From: Anaerofustis stercorihominis
Lineage (GTDB): Bacteria; Bacillota; Clostridia; Eubacteriales; Anaerofustaceae
Direction: 5' to 3'
Length of the DNA stretch: 64,000 bases
Assembly (NCBI RefSeq): GCF_005844425.1
Contig: NZ_SPHL01000004.1
Location: 1 to 64,000 of the forward strand
The notes under the pieces were generated by a model. That model searched no databases. It saw only the letters and a program-made list of their open reading frames with translations, and was not told where the DNA came from. The translations under genes were made by a program, and so were the position numbers. Shown here one piece after another: positions 175 through 52,965 of this stretch. Every line of letters begins with the position of its first letter. The first letter of the stretch is position 1.

Positions 175-1345
175 TTAATTATTAATTTTTTTATATATGC
201 TTTTACCGTTCTTTATTGTTTCAAGAACATTTATATTTTGTATTTCGTCAATATTTTTTACTTTTAAAGGATTTTTATCCAAAATTATAAAGTCGGCATT
301 TTTTCCTTCTTTAATGCTTCCTTTTTCATTTTCTTCAAAATAAGAATATGCGGCATTTATTGTTGCAGCTTTTAATGCTTCTTCTATTGATATTTTTTCT
401 TCTTCTCCTAAAATAACTCCATTTTTTGTCTCTCTTTTTAAAGTTATCCATATACTTCTTAATATATTAGGTTCAACAACAGGTGTATCTTCGTGAATTG
501 TGTATACTACATTATTTTTTATAGCAGATTTAATAGGTGAGATATTAAATGCACGTTTTCCTAAATTTTTCAAATGAATATCTCCGAAAAAATATATATG
601 ATCCGCAAAGAAAGATGCTATCATTCCGATTTTAGACATTTCTTTCAGTTGGTCTTTTCTTACTGTTTGTGCATGAATCATTACAGGTCTGATATTTGTT
701 TTTTTATTTTTAAATGCACTTATTAGCTGATCTGCAGCGCTGTCTCCATTGCAATGGGTAATTATTTGAATATTTTCCTTTATGGCTGTATCTACAAAAT
801 GTTCTACTTCACTGTCTTTATAAATAGGATATCCTCTGTATTCTTTCTCGTTTTCATATGGTTTTGACATCCACGCAGTTTTACCTTGTGGCGAACCGTC
901 TAAAAATAATTTATATCCTCCTATTTTATAGCGGTTATGATATTTTAAATATTCTTTATTTTCATCTATTATTTCTTTACAATTTTTTATGTCTACATAA
1001 CTTACAACATCAATATCAAGCATATTTTTTTTAGACATTTCTTTTAAAATATTAAATTCTTCATATTTTGTAAGTCCGTCTTGAGCTGTTGTTATACCAT
1101 ATTGTAAATAGATTCTTTCTGCTTTTTTTATTGCTTCCATTAATTTTTCTATTGAAATATTCATGCATTTTTTTGTGTTATCTATAAAAGCACTTTCTTC
1201 AAGATATCCGTTTGGAATACCATTTTCTCTTCCTATTTTTCCTCCAATAGGATCTTTTGTATCCTTATTTATATTTAGTATTTCAAGTGCTTTAGTGTTA
1301 ACAACACCCATATGACCGGAAGAATGAGTAATTAAAATTAGAATT
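175..1345 (-). pseudogene. YtcJ-type amidohydrolase, C-terminal part (gene split by the ICE)
   Basis: This is the C-terminal three quarters of a metal-dependent amidohydrolase of the YtcJ/YtcJ-like family, cytoplasmic hydrolases of unsettled substrate. The frame enters from the ICE junction as ILITHSSGHMGVVN, and SGHMGVVN is the family hallmark. Later motifs are DGSPQG, HCNGDSAADQ (catalytic or metal His), HEDTPV (the usual H-x-D-x-P aspartate) and NADFIILD near the C-terminus. The matching N-terminal part with the HxH metal motif is at 52955-53366. Joined across the repeat aaattagaatt the sequence reads DKVSKEILILITHSSGHMG without a break, so the gene was intact before insertion. An internal ATG at 1311 could start translation, but the fragment lacks the first metal ligands and should be inactive. 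Confidence 0.9.
1335..1345. repeat. ICE left junction repeat (attL core)
   Basis: The 11-mer aaattagaatt occurs here and at 52955-52965, exactly where host amidohydrolase sequence stops and ICE sequence begins. One copy is needed to restore the amidohydrolase frame. Tn916/Tn1549-type integrases insert at AT-rich targets and leave short coupling sequences, so part of the identity may come from target resemblance rather than a strict duplication. Confidence 0.75.
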
Positions 1346-1645
1346 AGCCCTTTGAAATTTCACCACCTTCCGAGAGGCGTTATCGGGTGTTATTAAACCC
1401 CCGAAAACCCTTGAAAATACGCCAATTTATCCATGCAAAGGTGTTATGGGCTGTTATCGAACATTACCGCATTTTTATGGCCTCACGGACGCTCGTGAGG
1501 GAAAAATTAAGGGCAAAATACAGGGAACGACAAGAGAATGAAGTGGCAAAGAGAACTGTCGTGATGTGTGCCAGGCTCCGCCGGAGCCTTCCCCTGTGTG
1601 CAGCCGGACAACTGAATATAGCGGCTCTTGTGGGCCGATGTATTG
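1346..1645. other. ICE left end, no convincing gene
   Basis: About 300 bp between the junction and the first terminator. A frame of 89 codons (1387-1656) is open, but it has no ribosome binding site, a low-complexity basic composition and no recognisable domain, so I treat the stretch as non-coding. It contains related short words (GTTATCgggTGTTAT at 1379-1393 and TGTTATgggctGTTATC around 1443-1459) and the 10-mer CCCTTGAAAA at 1408-1417. The 10-mer recurs inverted at the right end (TTTTCAAGGG, 52925-52934). These are candidate arm-type binding sites for Int or Xis. Confidence 0.5.
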
Positions 1646-1679
1646 ACGGACATTAGTGTTTCTGCTGATGTCCGTTTTT
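1646..1679 (+). terminator. Rho-independent terminator-like hairpin
   Basis: Perfect 8-bp arms ACGGACAT (1646-1653) and ATGTCCGT (1668-1675) with a 14-nt loop, followed by a T run. It would stop transcription entering from the ICE left end before parB. Confidence 0.65.
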
Positions 1680-1703
1680 CTATGCCTAAAATCAGATGCG
1701 AAG

Positions 1704-1730
1704 GGAGGTTCCGGGCTGGGCCTCCTTTTT
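1704..1730 (+). terminator. Second hairpin with T5 tail upstream of parB
   Basis: Arms GGAGG (1704-1708) and CCTCC (1721-1725) are followed by TTTTT. It lies 25 nt upstream of the parB start. It may be a weak terminator or a leader attenuator for the transfer operon. Confidence 0.45.
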
Positions 1731-1754
1731 GTGTCTCAATGGAGGTGAGAAGCA

Positions 1755-2672
1755 TTGAGCGATAAGCCCGCGTCACCTGCCAGGGGACGAAAGAAAACCG
1801 CCCCGCCTGCCCAGCAGCCACCCCAGGAAGAAGTGGTGGTTCGCCTGCCGCTGACGGACCTTTACCCATTCCCGGACCATCCTTTTCAGGTGCGGGACGA
1901 TGAGGAAATGAAAGAGACAATCCAGAGCGTCAAAGAGTATGGCGTGATTGTCCCTGCCATCGTGCGGCCCCGCGAGGAAGGCGGCTATGAGATCGTAGCC
2001 GGACACCGGCGCAAATACGCCTGTGAGCAGGCCGGTCTGGATACCATGCCGGTTCTGATCCGCAACCTGGACCGGGATGCGGCCACCATCATCATGGTGG
2101 ACAGCAACCTTCAGCGGGAGAACATCCTTCCCAGCGAAAGGGCCAAGGCGTACAAGATGAAGCTGGAGGCTATCAAGCGGCAGGGCGCACGAAACGATTT
2201 GACTTCGCCGAAAATTTCGGCGAAGTTGAGAAGTGATGATGAGATCGGCCAGCAGATGGGGGTCAGCGGCGATACGGTCCGCAATTATATTTCCCTGACG
2301 AACCTGGTCCCGGAGCTGATGCAGATGGTAGACGAGAAAAAGATTGCCCTTTCACCCGCCTATCAAATTGCGGCGCTCAAACCGGAGGAACAGCAGATGC
2401 TCGTCACCACGATAGACTATGAGCAGGCCACCCCGTCACTCTCCCAGGCCCAGCGGATGAAGAAATTCAGCCAGGCCGGGCGGCTCAATGAGGACAGTAT
2501 GCTGGCAATCATGTCCGAGGAAAAGAAGCCGGAGAAGTTCAGCCTGACCTTTGACGGGGACCGCATACGCAAGTATTTTCCAAAATCCTATACGCCCCTG
2601 CAAATGGAAAACACCATCATCAAGCTGCTTGAGGCATGGCAGAGGAAACGCCAGCGCAGCCAGGAGCGGTAA
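1755..2672 (+). CDS. parB: ParB/Spo0J-family partition protein
   Basis: ParB-like DNA-binding protein of 305 residues, the first gene of the long ICE operon. An N-terminal ParB/sulfiredoxin-fold nuclease-like domain (about residues 30-120) holds the two family boxes GYEIVAGHRR and VDSNLQREN. An HTH region follows (about 155-185, IGQQMGVSGDTVRNYISL). The start is TTG at 1755, chosen because GGAGGTGAGA lies 5 nt upstream and no ATG fits. No ParA-type ATPase is visible in the window, so the protein may act in transcription or in maintenance of the excised circle rather than in a classical ParAB system. The C-terminus overlaps a frame that opens at 2636, but the next gene probably starts at 2741. 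Confidence 0.88.
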   Translation: MSDKPASPARGRKKTAPPAQQPPQEEVVVRLPLTDLYPFPDHPFQVRDDEEMKETIQSVKEYGVIVPAIVRPREEGGYEIVAGHRRKYACEQAGLDTMPVLIRNLDRDAATIIMVDSNLQRENILPSERAKAYKMKLEAIKRQGARNDLTSPKISAKLRSDDEIGQQMGVSGDTVRNYISLTNLVPELMQMVDEKKIALSPAYQIAALKPEEQQMLVTTIDYEQATPSLSQAQRMKKFSQAGRLNEDSMLAIMSEEKKPEKFSLTFDGDRIRKYFPKSYTPLQMENTIIKLLEAWQRKRQRSQER

Positions 2673-2740
2673 AACCGAATACACCTAACCCGCCGGACGA
2701 TCCATTTGCCCGGCCTTTTCATTTTCACAAGGAGGTATCC

Positions 2741-3349
2741 ATGTATATCAACACTTTCAAATACACACCGGCAGATGTAGACTGCAAACTTTGCACCGAG
2801 TATGTCAAAAAATTTGGCTGCACCGCCTGCGGCTGCCCCTGGATGGCCGAGCGCATTGAGGCGGGCGTTGTGGGCTATGCAGAGGTGGTCCGGCAGATGT
2901 TTCCCCACGATAAGCGCCTGATGGCCCGCCTGGAACCGCTGATCCGGGATTTCCCCGGTATGCTCTGGAAGGATGAGCGCCACCGGCAGCGCATGGAGGG
3001 CGTGAAAATCCACCTGGGACACAGCAAGCGCCGGGATACACCTGCCTTCTTTGCGGTCATGTTCCTGTTCACTTCCGATGAGGACATTTACCGCCGCGCC
3101 GGAAACTGCCTGTGCAGGCGAGGCGCAGAGTTTGACTATGCAAGGCTCCATGAGATTTCACCCCACGATTACACCCTCTATATCGCTGCGCGGGGCATTT
3201 ACACTAATGCGGGCGGCCTGACAACCCGTGACCTGGCGGATGCCGAGGTTGTGGACGCTGCGGCGCTCCGCATGATCGTGAACGCCCTGCTCATCGCCCG
3301 GTATGGCTGTGCGGCCTTGGATATTCACGAAAGGGGGCGCAAGGCATGA
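2741..3349 (+). CDS. Conserved ICE protein of unknown function, Cys-rich N-terminus
   Basis: A protein of 202 residues starting MYINTFKYTP. The ATG at 2741 is chosen because AAGGAGGTATCC lies directly upstream; an earlier in-frame start at 2636 would overlap parB and has no ribosome binding site. Near the N-terminus there is a cysteine cluster, CKLC...GCTACGCPW, which could bind metal. The rest is mainly helical with no membrane segment. I do not recognise an assigned function; similar proteins occur at this place in Tn1549-type elements. It is coupled to the next gene by a 4-bp ATGA overlap. Confidence 0.75.
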   Translation: MYINTFKYTPADVDCKLCTEYVKKFGCTACGCPWMAERIEAGVVGYAEVVRQMFPHDKRLMARLEPLIRDFPGMLWKDERHRQRMEGVKIHLGHSKRRDTPAFFAVMFLFTSDEDIYRRAGNCLCRRGAEFDYARLHEISPHDYTLYIAARGIYTNAGGLTTRDLADAEVVDAAALRMIVNALLIARYGCAALDIHERGRKA

Positions 3350-3615
3350 AACCTCTGCATCTCCCGCTGGAAGGCCACGACCTGCTGGCTGTGGAACGGT
3401 TCAAGGACGATACCCGGCACATGGCGGAATTTCTCATTCTGTCCACCCCCTGCCCCCTGGGGCGCAGGGGCCAGTATAAGCGGCTGTTTCTGACCGAGGA
3501 CGAGTATGCCCGGATGCGGTCCCTGGAACGCCAGGGCCAGCTTCAGATCCGCCGCCACGCTGCAATCATCGAGGGGCATATCCTGCCCGACAAACCCAAA
3601 AAACGCCGCCATTGA
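3346..3615 (+). CDS. Small conserved ICE protein, unknown function
   Basis: An 89-residue basic protein starting MKPLHLPLEG and ending KPKKRRH. It overlaps the preceding stop codon by 4 bp (ATGA), a sign of translational coupling. No domain, signal peptide or membrane segment is apparent. Its place between parB and the initiator suggests a maintenance or regulatory accessory role, but that is inference from position only. Confidence 0.65.
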   Translation: MKPLHLPLEGHDLLAVERFKDDTRHMAEFLILSTPCPLGRRGQYKRLFLTEDEYARMRSLERQGQLQIRRHAAIIEGHILPDKPKKRRH

Positions 3616-3645
3616 TGGCAGGCGTACCCATAGGAGGATTTAAGT

Positions 3646-4152
3646 ATGGACGCTTATGAAGCATTGAAAGAAACCTTTGACGATCTGTTTCAGCAGGCGG
3701 TTGAGGAAGGCTGCTACACCGAGGACGAGGCCACCGAGCTGGTGGAAAGCCTGGACATTTACAGTCTGTTGCAGGTGGTCCGCCATAATGCCACAACGGT
3801 GTATTCCTACATCACCCAGGGCAGGCAGGAACGGTCCTTTAACTACCGGGGCGAGGACCTGTTCCGCCAGAAAGCCACCCTGCTGTATGAGGAAACCGAC
3901 CAGGTGACAATGGAGATCGTGGTGGCTACCCGCACCTTGGAGCTGTGGCTCCTGGAAGATATGTCCCTGGCGGTTGTCTCCTGCGTGAGCGTGAACTACG
4001 ACCATGACGGTTATATCACGCAGTACCGCACCATCAAGGATACACCGGTCATGGACAGCGAGCTGTGCCTGGACCTGGGCGAGCTTGTGGAGGACTTAAA
4101 CGGGCTGTGCGGCCCGGTGTATGAACATACCCAGCCGGTCTATGAACCGTAA
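3646..4152 (+). CDS. Conserved acidic ICE protein, unknown function
   Basis: A 168-residue acidic protein (start MDAYEALKETFDDLF, end YEHTQPVYEP) with AGGAGGATTTAAGT upstream of the ATG. The sequence alternates helices and a beta-rich core (VTMEIVVATRTLELWLLED) with no membrane segments. I do not recognise the family. It lies 30 nt after the previous gene and is followed by a strong hairpin at 4160-4186. Confidence 0.65.
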   Translation: MDAYEALKETFDDLFQQAVEEGCYTEDEATELVESLDIYSLLQVVRHNATTVYSYITQGRQERSFNYRGEDLFRQKATLLYEETDQVTMEIVVATRTLELWLLEDMSLAVVSCVSVNYDHDGYITQYRTIKDTPVMDSELCLDLGELVEDLNGLCGPVYEHTQPVYEP

Positions 4153-4159
4153 CCAGTAA

Positions 4160-4189
4160 GGCGGCTGGCCCCAGGGCCGGGCCGCCCTT
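4160..4189 (+). terminator. Intergenic hairpin with C/T-rich tail
   Basis: Arms GGCGGC (4160-4165) and GCCGCC (4181-4186) enclose a second GGCC/GGCC pairing and are followed by CTTTC. Similar GC hairpins stand in front of several genes of this operon (5080, 5532, 8519). They may partially terminate or protect the transcript. Confidence 0.5.
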
Positions 4190-4209
4190 TCAGAATGGGA
4201 GTGATGAAT

Positions 4210-5091
4210 ATGGCAGTTTTTCGCGTAGAGCGCACACGGGACTACACCGTGATGAGCAACTACCACCTGAAAGATACCGGCCTGACCCTGAAAGCCAAGG
4301 GGCTTCTCTCCATGATGCTCTCCCTGCCGGATGAGTGGAATTACACAACGCGGGGCCTGGCCTCCATCTGCAAGGAAAGCGTGGAGACGATTGGCAAGAC
4401 CCTCCGGGAGCTGGAAAGCGCGGGGTATCTGACCCGCAGGCAGCTTCGGGGCAAGAATGGCCGGATCACCGATACCGAGTACACCATCTTTGAGAAGCCG
4501 GTCAAGCCCCAGCCGGAACCGGCCCAGCCAGATACGGCTTCACCAGGTACGGAAAACCCGGATATGGTAAATCCAGATATGGAAACACCAGATATGGCTG
4601 TACCAGATACGGGAAATCCGCCGCAATTAAATACTAAGAAATCAAATATCCAAAAATCAAATACTCATGGATCAAATACTCATTCATTCTTTCCTTCTGC
4701 GCCTGCGGCGGCAGAGACGGACGGACAGACGGAAGTAATGGAAAAACGAGAGGAAATCAGGGATCAGATTGAGTACGAGCATATCTGCAATTCCCTGAAC
4801 CGGGAACAGATAGACGAGTTCGTGGAAATCATGCTGGAAGTGGCGCTGACCAAAAGCCCCACCATCAAGATCGGGCGGGATGCGGAATACCCCACCGCTT
4901 TTGTTCAGCAGCGGTTTGCAAAGATCACCTGTTCCCACATCGAGAAAGTGCTGGACGGTATTCACGAAAACACCACCCGCGTCTGGAACACCAAGGCATA
5001 TCTGATGGCGGCGCTGTTCAATGCACCGTCCTCTCTGGACAACCACTACACGATGCTGGTCAATCACGACCTTTACGGAGGCGGCTCATAA
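4210..5091 (+). CDS. RepA_N-like replication initiator / DUF6017 protein
   Basis: A protein of 293 residues, start MAVFRVERTRDYTVM (ATG 4210, behind GGGAGTGATGAAT). The N-terminal 100 residues match the winged-helix N-terminus of RepA_N-type initiators and related DnaD-like proteins (LKAKGLLSMMLSLPDEWNYT, then an HTH around ESVETIGKTLRELESAGYL). A low-complexity linker of PDT/PDM repeats and KSN repeats covers about residues 105-160. The C-terminal domain (about 190-290) is of the DUF6017 type. The linker is encoded by two sets of 15-bp DNA repeats (see 4528-4612 and 4626-4685). RepA_N plasmids are known to carry their iterons inside rep. The likely job is replication of the excised circle. 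Confidence 0.78.
   Translation: MAVFRVERTRDYTVMSNYHLKDTGLTLKAKGLLSMMLSLPDEWNYTTRGLASICKESVETIGKTLRELESAGYLTRRQLRGKNGRITDTEYTIFEKPVKPQPEPAQPDTASPGTENPDMVNPDMETPDMAVPDTGNPPQLNTKKSNIQKSNTHGSNTHSFFPSAPAAAETDGQTEVMEKREEIRDQIEYEHICNSLNREQIDEFVEIMLEVALTKSPTIKIGRDAEYPTAFVQQRFAKITCSHIEKVLDGIHENTTRVWNTKAYLMAALFNAPSSLDNHYTMLVNHDLYGGGS
4528..4612 (+). repeat. Six iteron-like repeats with exact 15-bp period inside the initiator gene
   Basis: The 10-mers starting at 4528, 4543, 4558, 4573, 4588 and 4603 fit CCRGRTAYGG (for example CCAGATACGG, CCAGATATGG). The spacing is exactly 15 bp each time. They encode the Pro-Asp-Thr/Met repeats of the protein linker. Iterons inside the initiator gene are established for RepA_N-type plasmids, so this is a candidate replication origin of the ICE circle. 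Confidence 0.7.
4626..4685 (+). repeat. AT-rich 15-bp repeats next to the iterons (possible unwinding region)
   Basis: Four 15-bp units start at 4626, 4641, 4656 and 4671, with core ATCAAATA (first unit ATTAAATA). They are clearly more AT-rich than the surrounding ICE DNA. They encode the KSN/GSN repeats of the linker. AT-rich direct repeats next to iterons are typical of a DNA unwinding element; the assignment is inference. Confidence 0.55.
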
Positions 5092-5103
5092 GGGCCGCCT
5101 TTT
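5080..5103 (+). terminator. Hairpin overlapping the initiator stop codon
   Basis: Arms GGCGGC (5080-5085) and GCCGCC (5094-5099) with an 8-nt loop containing the TAA stop, followed by TTTTC. Possible intrinsic or partial terminator between the initiator and the next gene. Confidence 0.5.
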
Positions 5104-5136
5104 CTGCACCCCGGCATGGGGAGAAAGGAGTTTTGC

Positions 5137-5499
5137 ATGAAACGCCCGCTTGCGTATATCACCGCCCATTGGGGCGACAACGAGTTTGAGAACACCGAAA
5201 ACGCCGCCAAATACTGCCGCCTGGTCTACGAGGCCGGATTTTCCCCGGTCTGCCCGCTTCTGTTCCTTCCGCTGTTTTTGAAGGACAGCATCCCCCAGGA
5301 GCATAAGGACGGGATCGACATGGCCCGCGACTATCTCCGCCGCGCTTCTGTGCTGGTAGTCTGCGGCGGTACGGTGGATGAGGCCATGAAGAACGACATC
5401 GCCGTAGCCGAGCGGCTGCGGATCACCGCCACCACCCTGGACGGTATTTTGACGGTCAAGGGCCAGGGCCGCGAGGATGGCGGCAAAATGGGAGCCTGA
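5137..5499 (+). CDS. DUF4406/DUF7768-like nucleoside deoxyribosyltransferase-fold protein
   Basis: A protein of 120 residues. The ATG at 5137 is chosen because GAGAAAGGAG stands just upstream; the alternative ATG at 5116 has no such site. The fold signature is a Rossmann-like start (RPLAYITAHWGD), a central YCRLVYEAGFSPVCPLL and a later LRRASVLVVCGG and VDEAM. This is the pattern of DUF4406/DUF7768 proteins related to nucleoside 2-deoxyribosyltransferases. These are common on phages and ICEs and may act on nucleotides, but the substrate is unknown. Confidence 0.7.
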   Translation: MKRPLAYITAHWGDNEFENTENAAKYCRLVYEAGFSPVCPLLFLPLFLKDSIPQEHKDGIDMARDYLRRASVLVVCGGTVDEAMKNDIAVAERLRITATTLDGILTVKGQGREDGGKMGA

Positions 5500-5531
5500 C
5501 CCATGCGGGGGAAATACCTGCTCCGTCGTCT

Positions 5532-5565
5532 GGTGGTCCCGCCTTAGACGGGGCCGCCGCTTTCA
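5532..5565 (+). terminator. Intergenic hairpin before the PcfB-like gene
   Basis: Arms GGTGG (5532-5536) and CCGCC (5554-5558), with an inner CCCG/CGGG pairing, are followed by GCTTTC. It is the fourth GC-rich hairpin of the same style in this operon. Confidence 0.4.
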
Positions 5566-5589
5566 TCCTGACAGAAGGGAGTGATTTTG

Positions 5590-6075
5590 ATGCAGGAAGA
5601 AGTGGAAAACAGGACATTGACGCTGACGGTCAATGCCACCAAGTTCACCGGGCGGGTCCTGAAAGCGGCGCTTTCCAAGTACCTGGCCCACCGCAAGAAC
5701 AAGAAGCTGCAAAAGAGCCGGGACAGCCCGGACGATGTAAAGCCATACGGCAAGGTCAGCATGGAGGACCTGAAAAAGCAGTACGGCGACATGAAGGAGA
5801 TCGACCTGCAAGACAAGGGGCTTCGGAGTTTTGACCGGATTGCCCGCGAGTACAAGGTCCAGTATGCGGTCTATAAAACGGCAAAGGGCCAGTATCAGAT
5901 TTTCTTCAAGGCTCCCAGCGAGGCGAGTATGAACGCCGCCTTCCAGAAGTATTCCAAGAACCGGCTGAAAAAGGAGCAGCGCCGGGAGTCTGTGCTGGGT
6001 AAGCTCAAGAAGTTCAAGGAGCTGGTGAAAGCCCCGGTCCCGAACCGTGAGAAACGGAGGGAACAGGAACGATGA
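5590..6075 (+). CDS. PcfB family protein (DUF3801)
   Basis: A protein of 161 residues, start MQEEVENRTLTLTVNATKF at ATG 5590, about 9 nt after AGAAGGGAG (an in-frame GTG at 5581 is possible). PcfB-family proteins are small cytoplasmic partners encoded directly before the VirD4/PcfC coupling protein in Gram-positive conjugation systems. The recognisable features are the conserved DLKKQYGDMKEIDL region, the FDRIAREYKVQYAVYK core and a strongly basic C-terminal tail (NREKRREQER). It overlaps the following coupling-protein gene by 4 bp, consistent with coupled translation. Confidence 0.85.
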   Translation: MQEEVENRTLTLTVNATKFTGRVLKAALSKYLAHRKNKKLQKSRDSPDDVKPYGKVSMEDLKKQYGDMKEIDLQDKGLRSFDRIAREYKVQYAVYKTAKGQYQIFFKAPSEASMNAAFQKYSKNRLKKEQRRESVLGKLKKFKELVKAPVPNREKRREQER

Positions 6076-6527
6076 GACAGCTCGATTTGAAAAAACTTCT
6101 GCTCCCCAACCTGCCTTATCTGCTGATCGGCCTATATGCTACCAAGCTGGGCGAGGCGTGGCGGCTGGCTCCGGGCGCGGACGCTTCGGCCAAGCTGCTG
6201 GGCTTAATGGATGGATTTGCCGCCGCTTTTCAGTCAGCACTCCCCAGCTTTCACCCGGTTGACCTGCTGGTGGGCCTCTGCTGCGGGGCTGCCCTGCGTC
6301 TGGCTGTTTACTTCAAGGGCAAGAACGCCAAGAAGTACCGCAAGAACATGGAATACGGTTCGGCCCGCTGGGGTACGGCGGAGGACATCAAGCCGTTTAT
6401 GGACCCGGTGTTTGAGAATAACATCATTCTCACCCAGACGGAACGGCTGACGATGAACAGCCGCCCCAAGGACCCCAGGACAGCCAGGAATAAGAATGTT
6501 TTGATTATCGGCGGATCTGGAAGTGGT
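6072..6527 (+). pseudogene. TraG/VirD4 coupling protein, N-terminal part (interrupted)
   Basis: The N-terminal 152 codons of the type IV secretion coupling ATPase (PcfC/TraG/VirD4 family), which brings the relaxase-DNA complex to the mating channel. Two N-terminal membrane segments are visible (about residues 10-28 and 60-80), then GSARWGTAEDIKPFM and the start of the nucleotide-binding loop, NVLIIGGSGSG. The frame then runs into foreign sequence and stops at 6578. The missing residues K and T of Walker A resume at 6866. Joining 6527 to 6866 gives GGSGSGKTRFWLKPN in frame. As it stands, this part is a truncated product without ATPase activity. Confidence 0.88.
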
Positions 6528-6865
6528 AGAAGGCCCCCACCTGACCCTGCATGGGGTACGGGCCGATTGCCGTCTTAACCGAAGCCAGCAAGTAAGTTAA
6601 GAGTATCAGCGCGGAAGAAATCTGGAAGGGTTTTGCAGTCCTGACCGGAGTGGAAGGCCCGCCTTAAAAAGCGGGACACACGCAACGCATAGGGCTTGAG
6701 CCTGCCTTGCAGAATATAACAGCCCCACGAGGCCGCGCTGCCGGCTGGCCTGCCGGATACGGCAGGGCAAAAAGATATGCTATGCTGGGCGTGAATGGAC
6801 ACGCCGCTGAAAATGGGCGAAAGCTCCAGAGGGGCTGATAAAAAGCGGCCCGGTAATCACATCAG
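6528..6865 (+). ncRNA. 338-bp structured insert in traG, HEARO/omega-RNA-like candidate
   Basis: A non-coding insert that splits the Walker A codons of the coupling-protein gene. Its edges are fixed to within one base, because excision of 338 bp (6528-6865 or 6529-6866) restores the frame. It is dense in perfect stems: GGCCC/GGGCC (about 6532-6564) enclosing ACCC/GGGT, CTTAAC/GTTAAG (about 6574-6601), CCCGC/GCGGG (about 6658-6676), CCTGCCG/CGGCAGG (about 6750-6768) and GGCGTG/CACGCC (about 6788-6806). A closing pair AGCCCC (about 6720) with GGGGCT (about 6833) holds the last two. There is no ORF, and no group II domain V or group I core was recognised. Size, insertion behaviour and motifs such as GGGGCTGATAAAAAG recall HEARO RNAs, the guide RNAs of IscB/IsrB elements, but I could not run a covariance search. 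Confidence 0.5.
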
Positions 6866-8212
6866 AAAACACGCTTCTGGTTGAAACCCAACCTGATGCA
6901 GTGTACTTCCAAGACCTATCCGACATCCTTCGTAGTCACCGATCCAAAGGGCAGTATCCTCATCGAGTGCGGGAAAATGCTGCAAAAGTTCGGCTACCGC
7001 ATCCGTTTCCTGAACACCATCAACATGAAAAAATCCATGCACTACAATCCTTTCGCCTACATCCACTCGGAGAAGGACATCCTGAAATTGGTGACAACGC
7101 TGATTGCGAACACCAAAGGCGAAGGCAAAGGCGGGGACGATTTTTGGGTCAAAGCCGAGACGCTATTGTTTACGGCGCTGATCGGCTACATCCATTATGA
7201 GGCCCCAACGGAGGAACAGAACTTCTCCACCCTGCTGGAAATGATTAATGCGATGGAGGTCCGGGAGGACGATGAGGAATTTGAAAACCCTGTGGATTTG
7301 ATGTTCAAGGAGCTGGAAAGCCGCCAGCCCGGACACTTTGCGGTACGCCAGTATAAAAAATACAAGCTCGCCGCAGGTAAGACAGCCAAAAGTATCCTTA
7401 TCAGCGCGGCGGCCAGAACCTCTATTTTTGACATTCAGGAGGTCCGGGACCTGACTGCCTATGACGAGCTAGAATTAGACACCCTCGGAGATCGCAAGAC
7501 AGCGTTGTTTTTGATAATGAGCGACACCGAGGACAGTATGAATTTTTTGATCGCTATGGCCTATTCCCAGCTTTTCAACCTGCTGTGCGAGAAGGCTGAT
7601 GATGTGTATGGCGGCAGGCTGCCGGTTCATGTGCGCTGCCTCATAGACGAGGCCGCCAACATCGGGCAGATCCCCCGGCTGGAGAAACTGGTCGCAACCA
7701 TCCGAAGTCGTGAGGTATCCGCCTGCCTCGTCCTCCAGGCGCAGAGCCAGCTTAAAGCGATTTACAAAGACAACGCCGACACCATCATCGGAAATATGGA
7801 TGCCACGGTATTCCTGGGCGGCAAGGAGCCGACCACCTTAAAGGAGCTGGCGGCATCCCTTGGGAAAGAGACAATCGATACCTACAATACCGGCGAAAGC
7901 CGTGGGCGGGAAACTTCCCACTCTCTCAATTACCAGAAGCTCGGAAAAGAACTGATGAGCCAGGATGAGCTGGCCGTTATGGATGGCGGCAAGTGCATCC
8001 TGCAACTGCGCGGCGTAAGGCCGTTTCTTTCGGATAAGTTTGACATCACCAAACATCCGAACTACAAATATCTATCCGACTACGACAAGAAAAACGCCTT
8101 CGACATAGAGCGTTTTCTGTCTGCCAGGCTCAAATTGAGGCCGGACGAACAATTTGCAGCCTATTCGATTGACCTGTCCGGGGACGAAGCCGCCGAGGAA
8201 ACCGGCGGCTGA
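6866..8212 (+). pseudogene. TraG/VirD4 coupling protein, C-terminal part
   Basis: The remaining 448 codons of the coupling protein. It begins with the last Walker A residues (KTRFWLKPNLMQ) and continues with VTDPKGSILIECG, the conserved STF/NTINMKKSMHYNPF region, Walker B-like VRCLIDEAANIGQ and CLVLQAQSQLKAIY, all typical of VirD4/TraG. A TTG at 6881 could open translation, but there is no ribosome binding site in front and the product would lack the P-loop. The gene is otherwise undamaged, so the interruption looks recent or reversible. Confidence 0.88.
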
Positions 8213-8281
8213 TTACCTTCGAGGAAAATGTGTGCCTTCCGTAATCAATCAAAAATCAATCAAATTTTATGGAGGTACATT

Positions 8282-8497
8282 ATGGAATTCTTTAACTCTG
8301 CTGTGGATGTTCTTCAGACTCTCGTGATTGCCCTGGGCGCTGGCCTTGGTATCTGGGGCGTGATTAACCTTCTCGAAGGCTACGGCAACGACAACCCTGG
8401 TGCAAAAAGCCAGGGTATGAAACAGCTCATGGCGGGCGGCGGCGTTGCCCTGATCGGTATGCTGCTCGTTCCGCAGCTCACCGGGCTTTTCGGCTAA
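8282..8497 (+). CDS. Maff-2 family mobile element protein
   Basis: A 71-residue hydrophobic protein starting MEFFNSAVDVLQTLV (ATG 8282 behind TATGGAGGTACAT; the longer in-frame version from 8228 has no ribosome binding site). Two membrane segments flank a conserved loop, LLEGYGNDNPGAKSQG, the signature of the Maff-2 family. This family sits between the coupling protein and the VirB6-like gene in Tn1549-type ICEs and is thought to resemble the VirB2/TrbC pilin-like subunit. It is presumably part of the mating channel in the cytoplasmic membrane. Confidence 0.85.
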   Translation: MEFFNSAVDVLQTLVIALGAGLGIWGVINLLEGYGNDNPGAKSQGMKQLMAGGGVALIGMLLVPQLTGLFG

Positions 8498-8518
8498 TCT
8501 GTCACCCCAAAACCCCAG

Positions 8519-8543
8519 CCCCTCCCGTCCTGTGCGGGAGGGG
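8519..8543 (+). terminator. Strong GC hairpin between maff-2 and the VirB6-like gene
   Basis: Perfect 9-bp arms CCCCTCCCG (8519-8527) and CGGGAGGGG (8535-8543), 7-nt loop, no T run. Without a T run it may stabilise the upstream mRNA or attenuate, and so help express the pilin-like gene at a higher level than the genes behind it. Confidence 0.5.
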
Positions 8544-8564
8544 CAGAAAGGAGGGTAAACCCCT

Positions 8565-9434
8565 ATGGATTTTCTGTGGGATGCCATAACCGAATGGCTC
8601 AAGGAGCTTCTGGTGGGCGGTATTACGAGCAACCTGTCCGGGATGTTCGATTCCGTCAACCAGAAGGTGGCTGAAATCTCCGGCCAGGTGGGTATGACCC
8701 CCCAGGGCTGGAATGGCAGCATCTATAACATGATCCACAACCTTTCGGAGACGGTCATTGTCCCCATCGCCGGAGTGATTTTAGCGTTTGTTATGACGCT
8801 GGAATTGATCCAGATCATCACCGACAAGAATAACTTCCACGAGATCGAAACAGCGGTCTTTTTCAAGTGGATTTTCAAAACGGCCTGCGCCATCCTGATT
8901 GTCACCAATACCTGGAACATCGTCATGGGTGTGTTTGATGTGGCGCAGGGCGTTGTCAATCAGGCATCCGGCGTTATCATCTCGGATGCAAGCATCGACA
9001 TCAGCTCCGTTGTCACTGACATGGAGAGTCGTCTGATGGAGATGGAGCTGGGGCCGCTGTTCGGCCTGTGGTTCCAATCCCTGTTTGTGGGCATTACCAT
9101 GTGGGCGCTCACCATCTGCATATTCATCGTCATTTATGGTCGGATGGTGGAAATCTATCTCGTGACCTCTGTGGCTCCCATCCCGATGGCGGCCATGATG
9201 GGTCGGGAATGGGGCGGCATGGGCCAGAACTACCTGCGCTCCCTGATGGCCCTGGGCTTTCAGGCATTTCTCATCATCGTCTGCGTGGGCATCTATGCGG
9301 TCCTGGTGGAGAATATCGCCCTGGATGATGACATCATCGGCGCGATCTGGAGCTGTGTGGGCTATACGGTGCTGCTGTGTTTTACCCTGTTCAAAACTGG
9401 AAGCCTCGCCAAGAGCATTTTCTCGGCGCACTAA
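8565..9434 (+). CDS. TrbL/VirB6-like conjugal transfer membrane protein
   Basis: A 289-residue polytopic membrane protein starting MDFLWDAITEWLKEL. Hydrophobic segments lie near residues 63-85, 103-125, 160-200 and 225-280. The pattern and the motif VAPIPMAAMMGREWGGMGQNYLR match the CD1112/TrbL/VirB6-type subunit of Gram-positive type IV secretion systems, which forms the inner-membrane part of the channel. AGAAAGGAGGG lies before the ATG. It is followed after 20 nt by the PrgI gene. Confidence 0.82.
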   Translation: MDFLWDAITEWLKELLVGGITSNLSGMFDSVNQKVAEISGQVGMTPQGWNGSIYNMIHNLSETVIVPIAGVILAFVMTLELIQIITDKNNFHEIETAVFFKWIFKTACAILIVTNTWNIVMGVFDVAQGVVNQASGVIISDASIDISSVVTDMESRLMEMELGPLFGLWFQSLFVGITMWALTICIFIVIYGRMVEIYLVTSVAPIPMAAMMGREWGGMGQNYLRSLMALGFQAFLIIVCVGIYAVLVENIALDDDIIGAIWSCVGYTVLLCFTLFKTGSLAKSIFSAH

Positions 9435-28686: not shown

Positions 28687-29496
28687 ATGACACAGGAAGA
28701 AATGCTGACAGCCCTTTATGAAAAGATGGCTGCTGAACAGGACAAGTACCGCGACTGGCTGAAAAACCAGCCTGCGGCGGAGGTCTTAAACCATGCCTAC
28801 GAGTACACGGTCCGGGAGGACATCGTGATGTGCATGGAGGAATTGGAGCTGACCGAAGCCCAAGCAAAGGCGCTTCTGGCTTCGCCCGCGCCGCTGGCCG
28901 ATGTTTACAAGGACTTTGAGAAGCTGGAAACCAGCTACATGGATGTGATACGGGACACCATCGAAACCAGGGCAAACGAGCTGTATCAGGCCCAGGAAAC
29001 ACTGAAAAATACGCCCCTCTATCCCCATTCGGCGGCGTATGCGTCCGAGCATGGGGAGATGGCACAATACAACGCCTCGTTTCAGGCAAGCCATGCCTGC
29101 AAGGAGGCCATCGAACAGGCAATCGGCCGCCATTACAGCAATAACCGGCTGGATGCCGAAGCCGCTGTGAACGATGTATTAGAACAGTTCGGGGCGGACC
29201 GGGTACAGTATGTGCTGGCCAACACGGTCCGGCATAAGGAATGGGATGGGCGCATCTCCCGCGACAATAAGGCATGGGCCAGCACGATGCCCCTGCCGGA
29301 GGGCAGCCCCCAGGACCGGCACAGCGAGTATCTGGTGGTGGACCGCTGCAATCCCGGTCTGACCGACCTGTTTCTGAAGCAGGTGCGGCAGCTTGCCGGA
29401 GAACGAGAAAAACCCTCTGTCCGGGAGAAACTGCAAAAGGCTCCGGCGGCTCCCCGGCGCTCTGCCCCAGCCAGGAAGAAAGAGGCGGAGCGTTGA
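28687..29496 (+). CDS. DUF3848/DUF3849 fusion protein
   Basis: A 269-residue cytoplasmic protein starting MTQEEMLTALYEKMAAEQDKY two bases after the helicase stop. Residues about 5-95 follow the DUF3848 pattern (LNHAYEYTVREDIVMCME, ADVYKDFEKLETSYMDVIRD). Residues about 115-235 follow DUF3849 (LYPHSAAYASEHGEMAQYNAS, FGADRVQYVLANTVRHKEWDGR, SRDNKAWA). Both are ICE-associated domains of unknown function. The C-terminal tail is basic. The position between helicase and MobC suggests a role in DNA processing or relaxosome control. Confidence 0.8.
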   Translation: MTQEEMLTALYEKMAAEQDKYRDWLKNQPAAEVLNHAYEYTVREDIVMCMEELELTEAQAKALLASPAPLADVYKDFEKLETSYMDVIRDTIETRANELYQAQETLKNTPLYPHSAAYASEHGEMAQYNASFQASHACKEAIEQAIGRHYSNNRLDAEAAVNDVLEQFGADRVQYVLANTVRHKEWDGRISRDNKAWASTMPLPEGSPQDRHSEYLVVDRCNPGLTDLFLKQVRQLAGEREKPSVREKLQKAPAAPRRSAPARKKEAER

Positions 29497-29497
29497 T

Positions 29498-29836
29498 ATG
29501 GCGAACCGGGAACGGGAAATCCAACTGAAATTCCGCGTCACTCCAGAGGAAAGGGAGCTGATCGAGGCAAAGATGGCCCAGCTCGGCACACAGAACATGG
29601 CGGCCTATCTGCGGAAGATGGCCCTGGATGGGTATGTGGTCCGTCTGGAACTGCCGGAGCTTCGGGAGATGGTATCCCTGCTGCGCCGGAGCAGCAACAA
29701 CTTAAACCAGCTCACCCGGCGCGTCCATGAGACAGGACGCATCTATGATGCCGACCTGGAAGATCTACGGCAGGGACAGGAAAAGCTGTGGGAGGCGGCG
29801 GAACATATCCTCTCGGCATTGGCGGCCCTGAAATAA
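29498..29836 (+). CDS. mobC: MobC-type relaxosome accessory protein
   Basis: A 112-residue protein starting MANREREIQLKFRVTPEERELIE (ATG 29498, two bases after the previous stop, behind GGCGGAGCG). The N-terminus has a ribbon-helix-helix-like element, and the C-terminal half carries the MobC motif LLRRSSNNLNQLTRRVHETGRIY. MobC proteins bind near oriT and help the relaxase to nick. The partner relaxase is at 37556, separated from mobC by cargo 1. In related elements the two lie close together, so the cargo appears to have been inserted between them. Confidence 0.88.
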   Translation: MANREREIQLKFRVTPEERELIEAKMAQLGTQNMAAYLRKMALDGYVVRLELPELREMVSLLRRSSNNLNQLTRRVHETGRIYDADLEDLRQGQEKLWEAAEHILSALAALK

Positions 29837-37484: not shown

Positions 37485-37531
37485 CAGAATAAGAAACTAT
37501 CAACAGGGGTGGCCTGCAGATGCAGGCCGCC
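37485..37531. repeat. Palindrome-bearing repeat at right edge of cargo 1
   Basis: Second copy of the repeat at 30825-30866: cagaat...atcaaca and the palindrome GGCCTGC-AGAT-GCAGGCC, here with GGTGGCC in place of GGCGGCC at the outer left arm and a 5-nt insertion in the spacer. It lies 25 nt upstream of the relaxase gene, a position where a relaxase or MobC binding site would be plausible. Confidence 0.68.
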
Positions 37532-37555
37532 CTCATCATGGAAGGAGGCTTTTTC

Positions 37556-38980
37556 ATGGCAACCACGCGGCTCATGCCCCTGCACACCGGCAAAGGCCGG
37601 ACGGTGGGGACGGCCATCAGCGACATCATCGACTATGTTCAAAATCCGCAGAAAACAGATAACGGCAGGCTCATTACCAGCTATCAATGTGACAGCCGGA
37701 TTGCAGATGCGGAGTTCCTTTTCAATAAGCGGCAGTACATCGCCGCCACCGGCCGGGTACGGGGTGAGGACGATGTGATTGCCTATCATATCCGACAATC
37801 CTTTGTCCCTGGTGAGATCACGCCGGAAGAAGCAAACCGGCTGGGCTGTGAGCTGGCGCGGCGCTTCACCAAGGGGAAACACGCCTTTATTGTCTGCACT
37901 CACATTGATAGAAAACACATCCATAATCACATCATTTTCGATGCCACCGCGCTGGACTACCAGCGAAAGTTTCGGAACTTTTGGGGCAGCACCCGCGCGG
38001 TCCGGCGGCTTAATGATACCATCTGTATAGAGAACGGATATTCCATTGTAGAGAACCCGAAGCCGCATGGAAAGAGCTATAACAAGTGGCTGGGTGATCG
38101 GGCCAAACAATCTCAGCGGGAGACGCTGCGTGTGATGATCGACCAGGCCCTGGAGCATAAACCCGCCGACTTCGATGCCCTGCTGAAGCTGCTGGAAGGG
38201 ATGGGCTGCGAGGTGTCCCGCCGTGGGCAGTCGTACAGCATCAAAGCACCTGGATGGGACAATGCCGCCCGCATGAGTAAGAAGCTGGGCAAAGGGTACA
38301 GTGAAGCCGAGCTTCGTGCGGTTCTGGCCGGAGAAAAGGAACATACCCCCACCAGGACCACGCCCCACCCGGAGCCGAAACAGGCTGTGAGCCTGATGGT
38401 CGATATTCAGGAAAAGCTTCGCGCTGGCAAGGGGGCCGGTTATCAGCGATGGGCCACCGGCTTCAATCTGAAGCAGATGGCGCAGACCATGAATTATCTC
38501 TCCGAGCATAAACTGCTTGATTATAAAGTGCTGTCGGAAAAGACAGCGGCAGCCACCGCCCTGTACAATGAATTGTCCGCGCAGATCAAGGCAGCGGAAA
38601 AGCGAATGACGGAGATTGCGGTCCTCCGCACCCACATCATCAACTACGCCAAAACGCGGGAGGTCTATGTCGCATATCGCAAGGCCGGATATTCAAAGAA
38701 GTTCCGCGCCGAGCATGAGGCAGACATCCTTTTACACCAGACCGCAAAGAAAGCATTTGATGAGCTGGGAATGAAAAAGCTCCCCACCGTCAAGAGCTTG
38801 CAGGCGGAATATGCGGAGCTGATGGCACAAAAAAAGGCAGCCTATTCCGGCTACCGAAAGGCCCGTGATGAGATGAAGGAGCTTCTGACCGTCAAGGCCA
38901 ATGTAGACCGCATCATGGGCTATGAGGAAGAAAAGCAGACAGAAAAAGAACACGCCCAGGAGCAGAGCCAGGGACGATGA
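37556..38980 (+). CDS. MOBP-type relaxase
   Basis: A 474-residue relaxase of the MobA/VirD2-like (PF03432) family, ATG 37556 behind GGAAGGAGGC. The likely catalytic Tyr lies in the N-terminal part (YVQNPQKT or YQC region). The metal-binding three-His motif is CTHIDRKHIHNHIIFDA (about residues 115-130). The C-terminal half is helical, Lys/Glu-rich and probably coiled-coil. The protein should nick at oriT and pilot the single strand through the channel. It is separated from mobC by 7.7 kb of cargo. No damage is visible. Confidence 0.9.
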   Translation: MATTRLMPLHTGKGRTVGTAISDIIDYVQNPQKTDNGRLITSYQCDSRIADAEFLFNKRQYIAATGRVRGEDDVIAYHIRQSFVPGEITPEEANRLGCELARRFTKGKHAFIVCTHIDRKHIHNHIIFDATALDYQRKFRNFWGSTRAVRRLNDTICIENGYSIVENPKPHGKSYNKWLGDRAKQSQRETLRVMIDQALEHKPADFDALLKLLEGMGCEVSRRGQSYSIKAPGWDNAARMSKKLGKGYSEAELRAVLAGEKEHTPTRTTPHPEPKQAVSLMVDIQEKLRAGKGAGYQRWATGFNLKQMAQTMNYLSEHKLLDYKVLSEKTAAATALYNELSAQIKAAEKRMTEIAVLRTHIINYAKTREVYVAYRKAGYSKKFRAEHEADILLHQTAKKAFDELGMKKLPTVKSLQAEYAELMAQKKAAYSGYRKARDEMKELLTVKANVDRIMGYEEEKQTEKEHAQEQSQGR

Positions 38981-39963: not shown

Positions 39964-40011
39964 AAGACCGATGGATTGAAACTGGTGGTCTTGAATGAAG
40001 GGAGGCGAACT

Positions 40012-40647
40012 ATGGCAAAAAGAGTGGCGGGAGTGACTGAAAAGCTCATGGAATGTGCTAAAGAGGAGTTTTTAGCAAATGGATATGAAAATGCTTCTCT
40101 CCGGATAATTGCAGAAAAGGCTGGATCGAGTAAAGGCGCAATCTATATTCGCTACCCTGATAAAGAAAGCCTATATCGGTCCCTGGTTCAACCGGCGGCG
40201 GACGGTTTTTGTGAATTGTTACAAACCGTATTATCCGGGTTTACCACGATGCCAGGTAATGAGCAGACAGAGCAAATGCTTCGATATTCCAATGATGGCT
40301 TTCCTAAAGTAGTGGACTATCTTTACGATCATTTCGATGAATTTAAGCTGTTGCTTACCAGTGGAGAGAATAGTGTCTATCAAGAGTTTATTCATCGTGT
40401 TGTTGAGCTGGATACAGAATGTACTGCAAAGTATATTGAGGCATCTGGAAATGATGCAATAACAAGCGGCCGGCTCACGCCGGAACTAAATCATCTTCTT
40501 TCCAGTGCTTTCTATACGGGAATGTTTGAGGTTATCATTCACGATATGCCGAAAGCCCAGGCATTGGAGCATATCCGCAAAATGCGGCGTTTCTATACCG
40601 CTGGATGGCAGACCATCTTTTCTACGGATGGAGGTGATGTCGTATGA
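40012..40647 (+). CDS. TetR/AcrR-family regulator
   Basis: A 211-residue regulator. The ATG at 40012 is preceded by GAAGGGAGGCG; the longer start at 39976 lies on the promoter side and is unlikely. The HTH lies at about residues 22-46 (NASLRIIAEKAGSSKGAIYIRYPDKESLY), and the remainder is the ligand-binding helical domain. It is co-transcribed with the KTR protein and placed in front of the transporter operon, so it probably responds to a substrate of these transporters. Confidence 0.85.
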   Translation: MAKRVAGVTEKLMECAKEEFLANGYENASLRIIAEKAGSSKGAIYIRYPDKESLYRSLVQPAADGFCELLQTVLSGFTTMPGNEQTEQMLRYSNDGFPKVVDYLYDHFDEFKLLLTSGENSVYQEFIHRVVELDTECTAKYIEASGNDAITSGRLTPELNHLLSSAFYTGMFEVIIHDMPKAQALEHIRKMRRFYTAGWQTIFSTDGGDVV

Positions 40648-40841
40648 GTGGTTGGATTGACCGCAACGGTTGGATTCACTGTCCTACCTGCGGCAACAAA
40701 ACCCGCACGAAAGTAAATCCGGATACTGTTCTCAAACACTTTCCGCTATTTTGTCCTAAATGCGGGAAAGAACACATCGTAGATGTGCAGGGACAAAGCA
40801 TCATATTATCAGAGCCAGACGCCAAGACGCAGAGCCGATAA
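40644..40841 (+). CDS. Cysteine-rich KTR zinc-ribbon protein
   Basis: A 65-residue protein with two CxxC pairs (CPTCGNKTRTKVN and CPKCGKE) forming a zinc ribbon and the KTR motif right after the first pair. The KTR family is widespread on mobile elements next to TetR regulators. It overlaps the tetR stop by 4 bp (ATGA). The role is unknown; RNA or DNA binding is plausible. Confidence 0.82.
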   Translation: MSGWIDRNGWIHCPTCGNKTRTKVNPDTVLKHFPLFCPKCGKEHIVDVQGQSIILSEPDAKTQSR

Positions 40842-40876
40842 TTTACAGGATAAATCCTGTGGATTGTCGGCTTTTA
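40833..40876 (+). terminator. Terminator of the tetR-KTR operon
   Basis: Outer arms AGCCGA (40833-40838) and TCGGCT (40867-40872) enclose the perfect inner palindrome ACAGGAT-AA-ATCCTGT, followed by TTTTA. The inner palindrome could also serve as an operator. Confidence 0.65.
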
Positions 40877-40909
40877 CTTTTAACCTATGGTTAGGTTCTG
40901 CTAACTAAA
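40864..40909 (+). promoter_or_regulatory. Promoter with DtxR-like box in front of the transporter operon
   Basis: Weak promoter TTGTCG (40864-40869), 16-bp spacer, TATGGT (40886-40891). The 19-mer at 40891-40909 (TTAGGTTCTGCTAACTAAA) agrees at 14 of 19 places with the classical DtxR/IdeR box TTAGGTTAGCCTAACCTAA. It lies between the -10 region and the ribosome binding site. The last gene of the operon encodes a DtxR/MntR-family protein, so metal-dependent self-control of the operon is likely. Confidence 0.6.
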
Positions 40910-40922
40910 AGGAGGGAATTGT

Positions 40923-42683
40923 ATGCAGCGACAAAAAGATTCTGTAAATCTGATGACATTCATTAAACCGCATCAATCAGGCTTTTTGCTTTCTATCATT
41001 CTTGCTGTTATCAGCGTCACAAGTGGTATCGTGCCATATTTCGCTGTGGCAAGGATCGTAAATCTGCTGATTGGAGGTGAAACGAATTTTTTTGCTTATT
41101 TAACATGGGGAATTGTTGCCCTTATAGCTTATCTGATGAAGTCCGTTTTTCATGGGTTATCTACCAGATGTTCCCATGAAGCGACATTCCATGTGCTTTC
41201 AGAAATACGACAGGCGATTGCGGATAAATTAACGCGTGTTTCTATGGGATATTTGACGGATACACCTTCGGGACGGCTGAAAACAACAATGGTAGAGCGT
41301 GTAGAGCAAATGGAAGTCCCTCTGGCACATATCATCCCGGAAATGACTTCTAACCTGCTTGTCCCCATCGCCATCATTATTTACCTGTTTGTGTTGGATT
41401 GGAGAATGGCACTGGTATCCCTGATTACGATACCCATCGGGATGCTCTGTTACATGGCCCAGATGAAGGAATACCCTAAAAAATACGGTGCTGTTGTTCA
41501 GGCAAGTAAGTATATGAGCGCCACCACTGTGGAGTACATCAATGGGATTGAGGTTATCAAGGCGTTCAATCAAAGTGCTGCCTCCTATGGAAAGTTTACA
41601 CAGGCTGTCCGTCAGAGCGTGGATCTCATGCTGGACTGGATGAAATCCACCCAGGGCTATTCTGCTCTGATGATGACGATTTGGCCTGCTGTACTGATTG
41701 GTGTGTTGCCTGTGGGATGCCTGTTCTATATGAACGGCTCTTTGTCTGCTCCGGACTTTATCACCATTGCCATTCTTTCTCTTGGCATTATGGGGCCGCT
41801 GGTTGCCGCTATCTTTCTGACGGATGATTTTTCTAAAATTGCAACTATCACCGGAGAAATTACTGCTGTATTGTCCGAGCCTGATCTGAATCGTCCGTCC
41901 CAGAGGAAAAATCTCAAAGGATTGGATATTTCTCTGCGGGATGTGACTTTTGCTTATAAGGATACGCAGGTTCTGAACGGTATCAATCTGGACATCAGAC
42001 AAGGAACCACAACGGCGTTAGTAGGACCGTCCGGCTCTGGTAAATCCACGATTGCGAAACTCATCGCCTCTTATTGGGATGTAGGAGGCGGGCATATCAC
42101 CATTGGTGGTGTTGACGCAAAAGAACTTCCTCCAGAGCAGGTAATGGATCTGATTGGTTATGTATCCCAGGATAATTTTCTGTTCAATTTGTCCGTCCGT
42201 GAGAATATCCGCATGGGCAGGCCAGAGGCAACGGATGCCGAAGTTGAGGCGGTGGCAAAGGCTGCGGGCTGTCATGAGTTTATCATGGGATTGGATCACG
42301 GCTATGACACGATTGTGGGAGGTGCTGGCGGACATCTTTCCGGCGGCGAACGGCAACGAGTAGCTATTGCACGCGCCATGATGAAAAATGCACCCATTGT
42401 TATCTTGGATGAGGCAACTTCTTACACGGACCCGGAAAACGAGGCGGTCATTCAGGATGCCATAGGACGGCTGACTCACGGAAAGACACTCATTGTGATT
42501 GCCCATCGCCTGTCCACCATTACCGGAGCGGAACAAATTGCTGTGGTAGATCACGGTAAGATTTTGGATGCCGGGACGCATGGAGAACTGTTGGAGCGGT
42601 GTCCGCTATATCAGCAAATGTGGGCAGCTCACACGCAGGCGCGAGACAACGATCAGATGGAAGGAGGTGCGGCGTATGTTTGA
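40923..42683 (+). CDS. ABC transporter half-molecule 1 (membrane domain + ATPase)
   Basis: A 586-residue type IV-fold ABC protein with six membrane helices in the first 310 residues and an ATPase domain behind. Walker A is GPSGSGKSTIAKL (about 369), the Q-loop lies in VSQDNFLFN, the signature is LSGGERQRVAIA, Walker B is IVILDEATSYTDPENE and the H-loop is IAHRLST. Pairs of such proteins include the YbtPQ and IrtAB siderophore transporters, which import although built like exporters. The DtxR-like box in front fits that group, but peptide or drug export cannot be excluded. It overlaps the next gene by 8 bp. Confidence 0.85.
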   Translation: MQRQKDSVNLMTFIKPHQSGFLLSIILAVISVTSGIVPYFAVARIVNLLIGGETNFFAYLTWGIVALIAYLMKSVFHGLSTRCSHEATFHVLSEIRQAIADKLTRVSMGYLTDTPSGRLKTTMVERVEQMEVPLAHIIPEMTSNLLVPIAIIIYLFVLDWRMALVSLITIPIGMLCYMAQMKEYPKKYGAVVQASKYMSATTVEYINGIEVIKAFNQSAASYGKFTQAVRQSVDLMLDWMKSTQGYSALMMTIWPAVLIGVLPVGCLFYMNGSLSAPDFITIAILSLGIMGPLVAAIFLTDDFSKIATITGEITAVLSEPDLNRPSQRKNLKGLDISLRDVTFAYKDTQVLNGINLDIRQGTTTALVGPSGSGKSTIAKLIASYWDVGGGHITIGGVDAKELPPEQVMDLIGYVSQDNFLFNLSVRENIRMGRPEATDAEVEAVAKAAGCHEFIMGLDHGYDTIVGGAGGHLSGGERQRVAIARAMMKNAPIVILDEATSYTDPENEAVIQDAIGRLTHGKTLIVIAHRLSTITGAEQIAVVDHGKILDAGTHGELLERCPLYQQMWAAHTQARDNDQMEGGAAYV

Positions 42684-44412: not shown

Positions 44413-44429
44413 TGCAGGGAGGCGGAGGT

Positions 44430-47645: not shown

Positions 47646-47648
47646 ACC

Positions 47649-51451: not shown

Positions 51452-51480
51452 TTGATAGGAAAGCCACCCTTTGCTATAAT
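51452..51480 (+). promoter_or_regulatory. Promoter of the integrase gene
   Basis: TTGATA (51452-51457), 17-bp spacer, TATAAT (51475-51480). It lies behind xis and 52 nt before the int start, giving int expression independent of xis. Confidence 0.75.
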
Positions 51481-51532
51481 CAGGGTGACACATCACTACG
51501 GTTCCGTTTGCCAGCATAGAAAGGAGTTTGCT

Positions 51533-52954: not shown

Positions 52955-52965
52955 AAATTAGAATT
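52955..52965. repeat. ICE right junction repeat (attR core)
   Basis: Second copy of aaattagaatt; see 1335-1345. To its right the amidohydrolase frame begins at once (minus strand: ATT CTA ATT codons for I-L-I). Confidence 0.75.

Follow-up and report, generated by a model that had tools for sequence, protein, structure and literature searches.

The window, by which we mean the whole 64-kb stretch of DNA analysed here, contains an ICE that spans approximately positions 1335 to 52965 and carries the same 11-bp core, AAATTAGAATT, at both ends; when the flanks are joined, a single amidohydrolase ORF results. The conjugation module comprises relaxase, MobC/NikA-like and VirD4/VirB4-like genes in a Tn1549-like order and, with the integrase gene, bears out the proposal of an earlier note on this DNA that the repeat array described below is carried by a Tn1549-like ICE. 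The Tn1549-like element in pMG2200 shows a gene order (initiator, PcfB/DUF3801, VirD4) similar to that of the window, and the array recurs with its DUF6017 protein in a version of its own. The cargo (39976-49274) encodes a TetR regulator, two ABC exporter-type proteins and a peptide/nickel-type ABC importer with an SBP_bac_5 binding protein. The ParB-like gene is situated near the left end, and no ParA gene was noticed in the left part of the element. The principal features are:

1335-1345, no strand: left end core AAATTAGAATT, end repeat
1755-2672, plus strand: ParB-like partition gene of the ICE (Pfam)
4210-5091, plus strand: initiator-like gene, 293 aa (Pfam HTH_36 and DUF6017; PHROGs initiation families)
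4276-4431, plus strand: HTH_36 winged-helix DNA-binding domain (Pfam; modelled recognition helix, residues 58-71)
4513-4522, plus strand: degenerate iteron CCGGAACCGG, CC-N6-GG retained, in phase
4528-4537, plus strand: iteron 1, CCAGATACGG, motif match
4543-4552, plus strand: iteron 2, CCAGGTACGG, motif match
4558-4567, plus strand: iteron 3, CCGGATATGG, motif match
4573-4582, plus strand: iteron 4, CCAGATATGG, motif match
4588-4597, plus strand: iteron 5, CCAGATATGG, motif match
4603-4612, plus strand: iteron 6, CCAGATACGG, motif match
4626-4679, plus strand: four AT-rich 15-bp repeats, candidate DNA-unwinding element
4708-5082, plus strand: DUF6017 C-terminal domain, proposed to recruit the replisome (Pfam; shared with RepA_N proteins)
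29393-29836, plus strand: NikA/MobC-like mobilisation protein
37520-38980, plus strand: relaxase (MobA/VirD2-like)
51452-52837, plus strand: tyrosine integrase of the ICE
52955-52965, no strand: right end core AAATTAGAATT, end repeat

Within the initiator-like gene (ATG at 4210, with an alternative ATG at 4195), a motif scan of the window recovered the six CCRGRTAYGG repeats at exact 15-bp steps (4528-4612) that the earlier note had reported, and a seventh, degenerate iteron lies one period upstream. The 64-kb window holds 11 matches to this motif where 0.82 are expected, a number that no shuffle reached. The four AT-rich 15-bp repeats said to adjoin the iterons are likewise present, without loss of phase, with cores ATTAAATAC at 4626, ATCAAATAT at 4641 and ATCAAATAC at 4656 and 4671, and both blocks do fall within one ORF, where they code for the linker of the protein. 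Over 4513-4685 the period-15 base matches amount to 100 of 158, compared with 85.0 ± 3.6 in synonymous-codon shuffles within the gene, none of 5000 of which reached 100, so that the periodicity of the DNA is stronger than the repeated peptide requires. No good DnaA box was found near the array, DnaA-box counts being at chance level, and an Rfam search of 1300-9000 gave no match above threshold.

The 293-aa product contains two Pfam domains, HTH_36 (PF13730; residues 23-74, E = 1.1e-9, 38.4 bits against a cut-off of 25) and DUF6017 (PF19481; residues 167-291). Its description in the earlier note as RepA_N-like is not supported as worded: by Pfam the protein is not RepA_N, its N-terminal domain being HTH_36, and its kinship with RepA_N initiators runs through the C-terminal DUF6017 domain. 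The RepA_N family PF06970 was matched neither in this protein nor in its genome, a search in which no control genome was positive either, yet the family was detected among the relatives; the pSK41-type C-domain PF18008 likewise gave no Pfam match in the window protein. That DUF6017 belongs also to true RepA_N proteins is seen in two loci, L108 and L113, where it stands behind PF06970. In L108, a related element, the RepA_N and DUF6017 gene directly follows a ParB gene, which resembles the window in that ParB lies upstream of the DUF6017 gene in both, although the N-domain of the window protein is HTH_36. As a side observation, the RepA_N and DUF6017 proteins of L108 (1417-2592, minus strand), L113 and L138-L151 have repeated linkers of their own and also a recurring NNTDINNTD-type stretch, which corresponds to a 5-codon AT-rich repeat like that of the pUSA03 rep. 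An hhalign comparison of DUF6017 with the pUSA03 RepA_N protein was not significant, and the name DUF6017, whose proteins carry no functional annotation, had no mention in the literature searched. The PHROGs matches of the window protein are to replication initiation, O-like and DnaD-like helicase loader families, its N-terminal half matching phage replication-initiation families. In the AlphaFold2 model residues 1-95 form a winged helix and residues 171-290 a helical C-domain; residues 104-170, modelled at low confidence and without structure, coincide with both repeat blocks, and the linker is predicted to be disordered. The best PDB fold match of the C-domain model, weak at E = 0.28, is 4pqk, titled C-terminal domain of DNA binding protein, which we take to be the staphylococcal RepA C-domain. 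With the whole model Foldseek returned generic winged helices, DnaB, DnaD and a Rep-DNA complex, all at E > 0.01, and PDB sequence searches yielded weak, unrelated matches only. The reading of DUF6017 proteins as putative hybrid initiators is new.

The collected relatives number 115 unique sequences, of which 60 have non-redundant linkers with 339 repeat units, and in these 60 the general site is CC-N6-GG, once per 15 bp. Of 314 informative third codons of the unit, 284 have G as their last base (113 expected): Thr at this position is ACG in 93 of 97 cases (25% in gene bodies), Ser is TCG in 28 of 35 (13% in gene bodies) and Gln is CAG in 35 of 35, while the codon that follows begins with G in 305 of the 339 units. 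The residues found here are mostly T, L, Q, S, M and R, which are chemically unlike and have NNG codons in common. Iterons and AT block choose opposite codons for the same residue (Leu TTG/TTA, Gln CAG/CAA, Thr ACG/ACT, Ser TCG/TCA), and the mean GC content of the AT block is 21% against 46% for the gene body, being lower in 56 of 56 genes. Furthermore, 23 genes contain units whose peptides differ although their DNA is a single site read from opposite strands, as exemplified by CCAGATACGG (PDT) and CCGTATCTGG (PYL); such reverse-complement pairs number 50, with none for the reverse-only and none for the complement-only control. The sites are nevertheless asymmetric with flips rather than palindromes, since the Pro wobble base and position 8 are complementary in only 120 of 268 units, fewer than the mean of 131 obtained by shuffling within genes (89.5 with a global shuffle); a strict palindrome reading was accordingly rejected.

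These observations bear on whether the DNA repeat might be a by-product of a proline-rich protein linker grown by slippage. The unit is five codons long and tandem, and slippage can copy such units, yet this explanation deserves almost no credence: codon choice in divergent relatives far exceeds gene usage, the neighbouring block uses the opposite codons, and no protein-only account explains why units with different peptides are one site on opposite strands. The alignment of relatives that the earlier note had proposed thus finds the DNA repeats kept, with synonymous codons that are not randomised. Codon choice, the reverse-complement units, the opposed codons of iterons and AT block, and the covariation of site and recognition helix described below together establish in silico that an initiator-type gene contains a DNA element under selection at the nucleotide level.

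Iteron similarity among the relatives follows the HTH domain when the C-domain is corrected for (partial Mantel 0.475, reached in 0 of 999 permutations) and does not follow the C-domain (partial Mantel -0.03). Pairs with similar HTH and dissimilar C-domains have an iteron likeness of 0.87 (n=74), compared with 0.44 (n=12) for pairs with dissimilar HTH and similar C-domains. The best predictor of the site beyond overall HTH identity is residue 62 (0.48; null 95%, 0.15), which sits in the modelled recognition helix and is mainly G, R or C/T/S. A natural swap is provided by L049, which carries another HTH and other iterons on nearly the AT block and C-domain of the window (DNA identity to the window 67% for the HTH, 48% for the iterons, 89% for the AT block and 82% for DUF6017). 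Part of the covariation reflects linked inheritance, because HTH and iterons are adjacent; the comparison nonetheless gives strong support, short of proof, for recognition by the initiator HTH of the iterons in its own gene. It also bears on a parS-like centromere for the upstream ParB, to which the ParB gene 1.5 kb upstream and the frequent occurrence of partition sites as arrays might point. However, the sites vary together with the HTH encoded by the gene in which they lie, and the same kind of array is found in HTH_36 initiator genes of phages and plasmids, whose context is quite different; a centromere is accordingly very improbable.

Origins inside rep genes are a known kind. In phage lambda the iterons lie inside the initiator gene O and are followed by an AT-rich stretch, and the window protein matches the PHROGs 'replication initiation O-like' family, although the lambda O iterons and C-domain differ from those of the window. 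Among RepA_N (PF06970) plasmids, pSK41 has its origin inside rep; the linker peptide encoded there can be dispensed with, and it is the N-domain that binds the sites (PMC5703833). The RepA_N initiators of pSK41 and pUSA03 resemble the window protein in that the origin, with its iterons, occupies the linker-coding part of rep, the iterons being followed in pUSA03 by an AT-rich block of 15-bp period; they differ in their PF06970 N-domain, where the window protein has HTH_36 and lacks a PF18008 C-domain, and the iteron period of pUSA03 is 23 bp rather than the 15 bp of the window. Although pUSA03 is cited as a pPR9-type hybrid, the sequence record examined carries PF06970, and it therefore serves here as a RepA_N comparison only. 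In pPR9 itself a pfam13730 N-domain and its ori, a region of ~500 bp, together replaced the RepA_N counterpart, and the mini-replicon replicates (PMC5703833). Compared through its published description, the pPR9 hybrid Rep is like the window protein in its HTH_36 N-domain and in the joint exchange of domain and ori, as for HTH and iterons here, and unlike it in having a C-domain of the pSK41 type rather than DUF6017 and in belonging to a plasmid rather than an ICE. Like the RepA_N class, the initiator gene of the window has iterons and an AT-rich block where the linker is encoded; like the HTH_36 class, it has the PF13730 N-domain and, immediately downstream of the HTH, a CC-N6-GG array of 15-bp period.

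The initiator-type families, the AT block, the occurrence of DUF6017 on RepA_N proteins and the pSK41 and pPR9 precedents suggest, with a probability that we put at roughly 0.77, that the stretch is a replication origin inside its own initiator gene and serves the excised ICE, whose circle it would probably allow to replicate, as the earlier note had supposed. By the mechanism that we infer, the HTH_36 winged helix would bind the CC-N6-GG iterons spelled by the codons of its own linker, several bound copies would strain and melt the adjoining AT-rich repeats, and the DUF6017 C-domain would recruit the host helicase loader and primase. The circular ICE would then replicate after excision, in a mode assumed to be theta, adding to relaxase-driven rolling-circle copying at oriT. 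No plasmid with a window-type protein as its sole initiator was found.

The array could instead consist of autoregulatory or copy-control sites (roadblock, handcuffing), with replication proceeding via relaxase and oriT only. Tandem sites within a gene could block its transcription, the window ICE has a relaxase gene, and relaxase-dependent replication from oriT is known for ICEBs1, a member of the Tn916 superfamily (PMC4701971). The very AT-rich block is, however, invariably beside the array, in 56 of 56 genes, and the lines of evidence just given for an origin weigh against this alternative, which we consider unlikely; an origin array may also be regulatory, so that the two readings overlap. 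A genuine ancestral origin now disused in a decaying ICE seems more doubtful still. The VirD4-like coupling-protein gene (6072-8212) is split into frames of 168 and 443 aa, compared with a single frame of about 595 aa in many relatives, and transfer of this copy may be impaired because of the split; yet the ORFs for initiator, integrase and relaxase are intact, as are the iterons and the AT block, and near-identical copies of the initiator gene occur in other genera (L032-L034). In several other loci the VirD4-like gene is interrupted at other points.

Numerous Tn1549-family ICEs have RepA_N genes and are suspected of episomal replication, and plasmid-like replication has been predicted for TnGBS, Tn5252 and some Tn1549-family ICEs with RepA_N (PMC4701971). 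The window initiator differs from these in having no RepA_N domain, and is for that reason missed by a RepA_N search; DUF6017 proteins as initiators would thus give Tn1549-type ICEs a plausible replicon that such searches overlook.

Beyond this element, in-phase 15-bp CC-N6-GG arrays with AT-rich runs are present in initiator genes of Parageobacillus, Alistipes and Lactobacillus phages and of an Aneurinibacillus plasmid, where they follow an HTH_36-like domain whose scores are below Pfam's own cut-off, and some of these genes are followed by a DnaC/DnaI-type gene. Like the window protein, the phage initiators have an HTH_36-like N-domain and are encoded by a gene that contains both the array and an AT-rich run; they differ in a DnaB_2 C-domain and, in several, in having a helicase-loader or replication gene next to them. 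In a Legionella plasmid the layout is weaker, and there is no Pfam match. A first viral scan with a single-protein query gave no confirmed relatives. At least three in-phase sites were found in 25 of 48 non-redundant viral relatives, where 7.2 are expected from synonymous shuffles, and the HTH-coding control gave none. What appears to be new is a recognisable code, CC-N6-GG at 15 bp, which the window gene has in common with phage and plasmid HTH_36 initiators and which is seemingly wider than this element; in many of those initiator genes the layout is looser. We lean towards the view that HTH_36 initiators of ICEs, phages and plasmids in several phyla share one origin code, CC-N6-GG at 15 bp and then an AT-rich run, written in their own linkers; the linker peptide would be essentially a by-product of the sites, and HTH and array would form one cassette that switches origin specificity between elements. 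Such a rule would make it possible to locate the origins of many phages, plasmids and ICEs from their sequence, and residue 62 opens specificity and compatibility groups to direct testing. Several other viral relatives show, by eye, other repeated linkers; among the viral HTH_36 relatives L192, L229, L183 and L188 these are tandem pentapeptides of VQN- and ENRPS-type, which probably represent different iteron codes.
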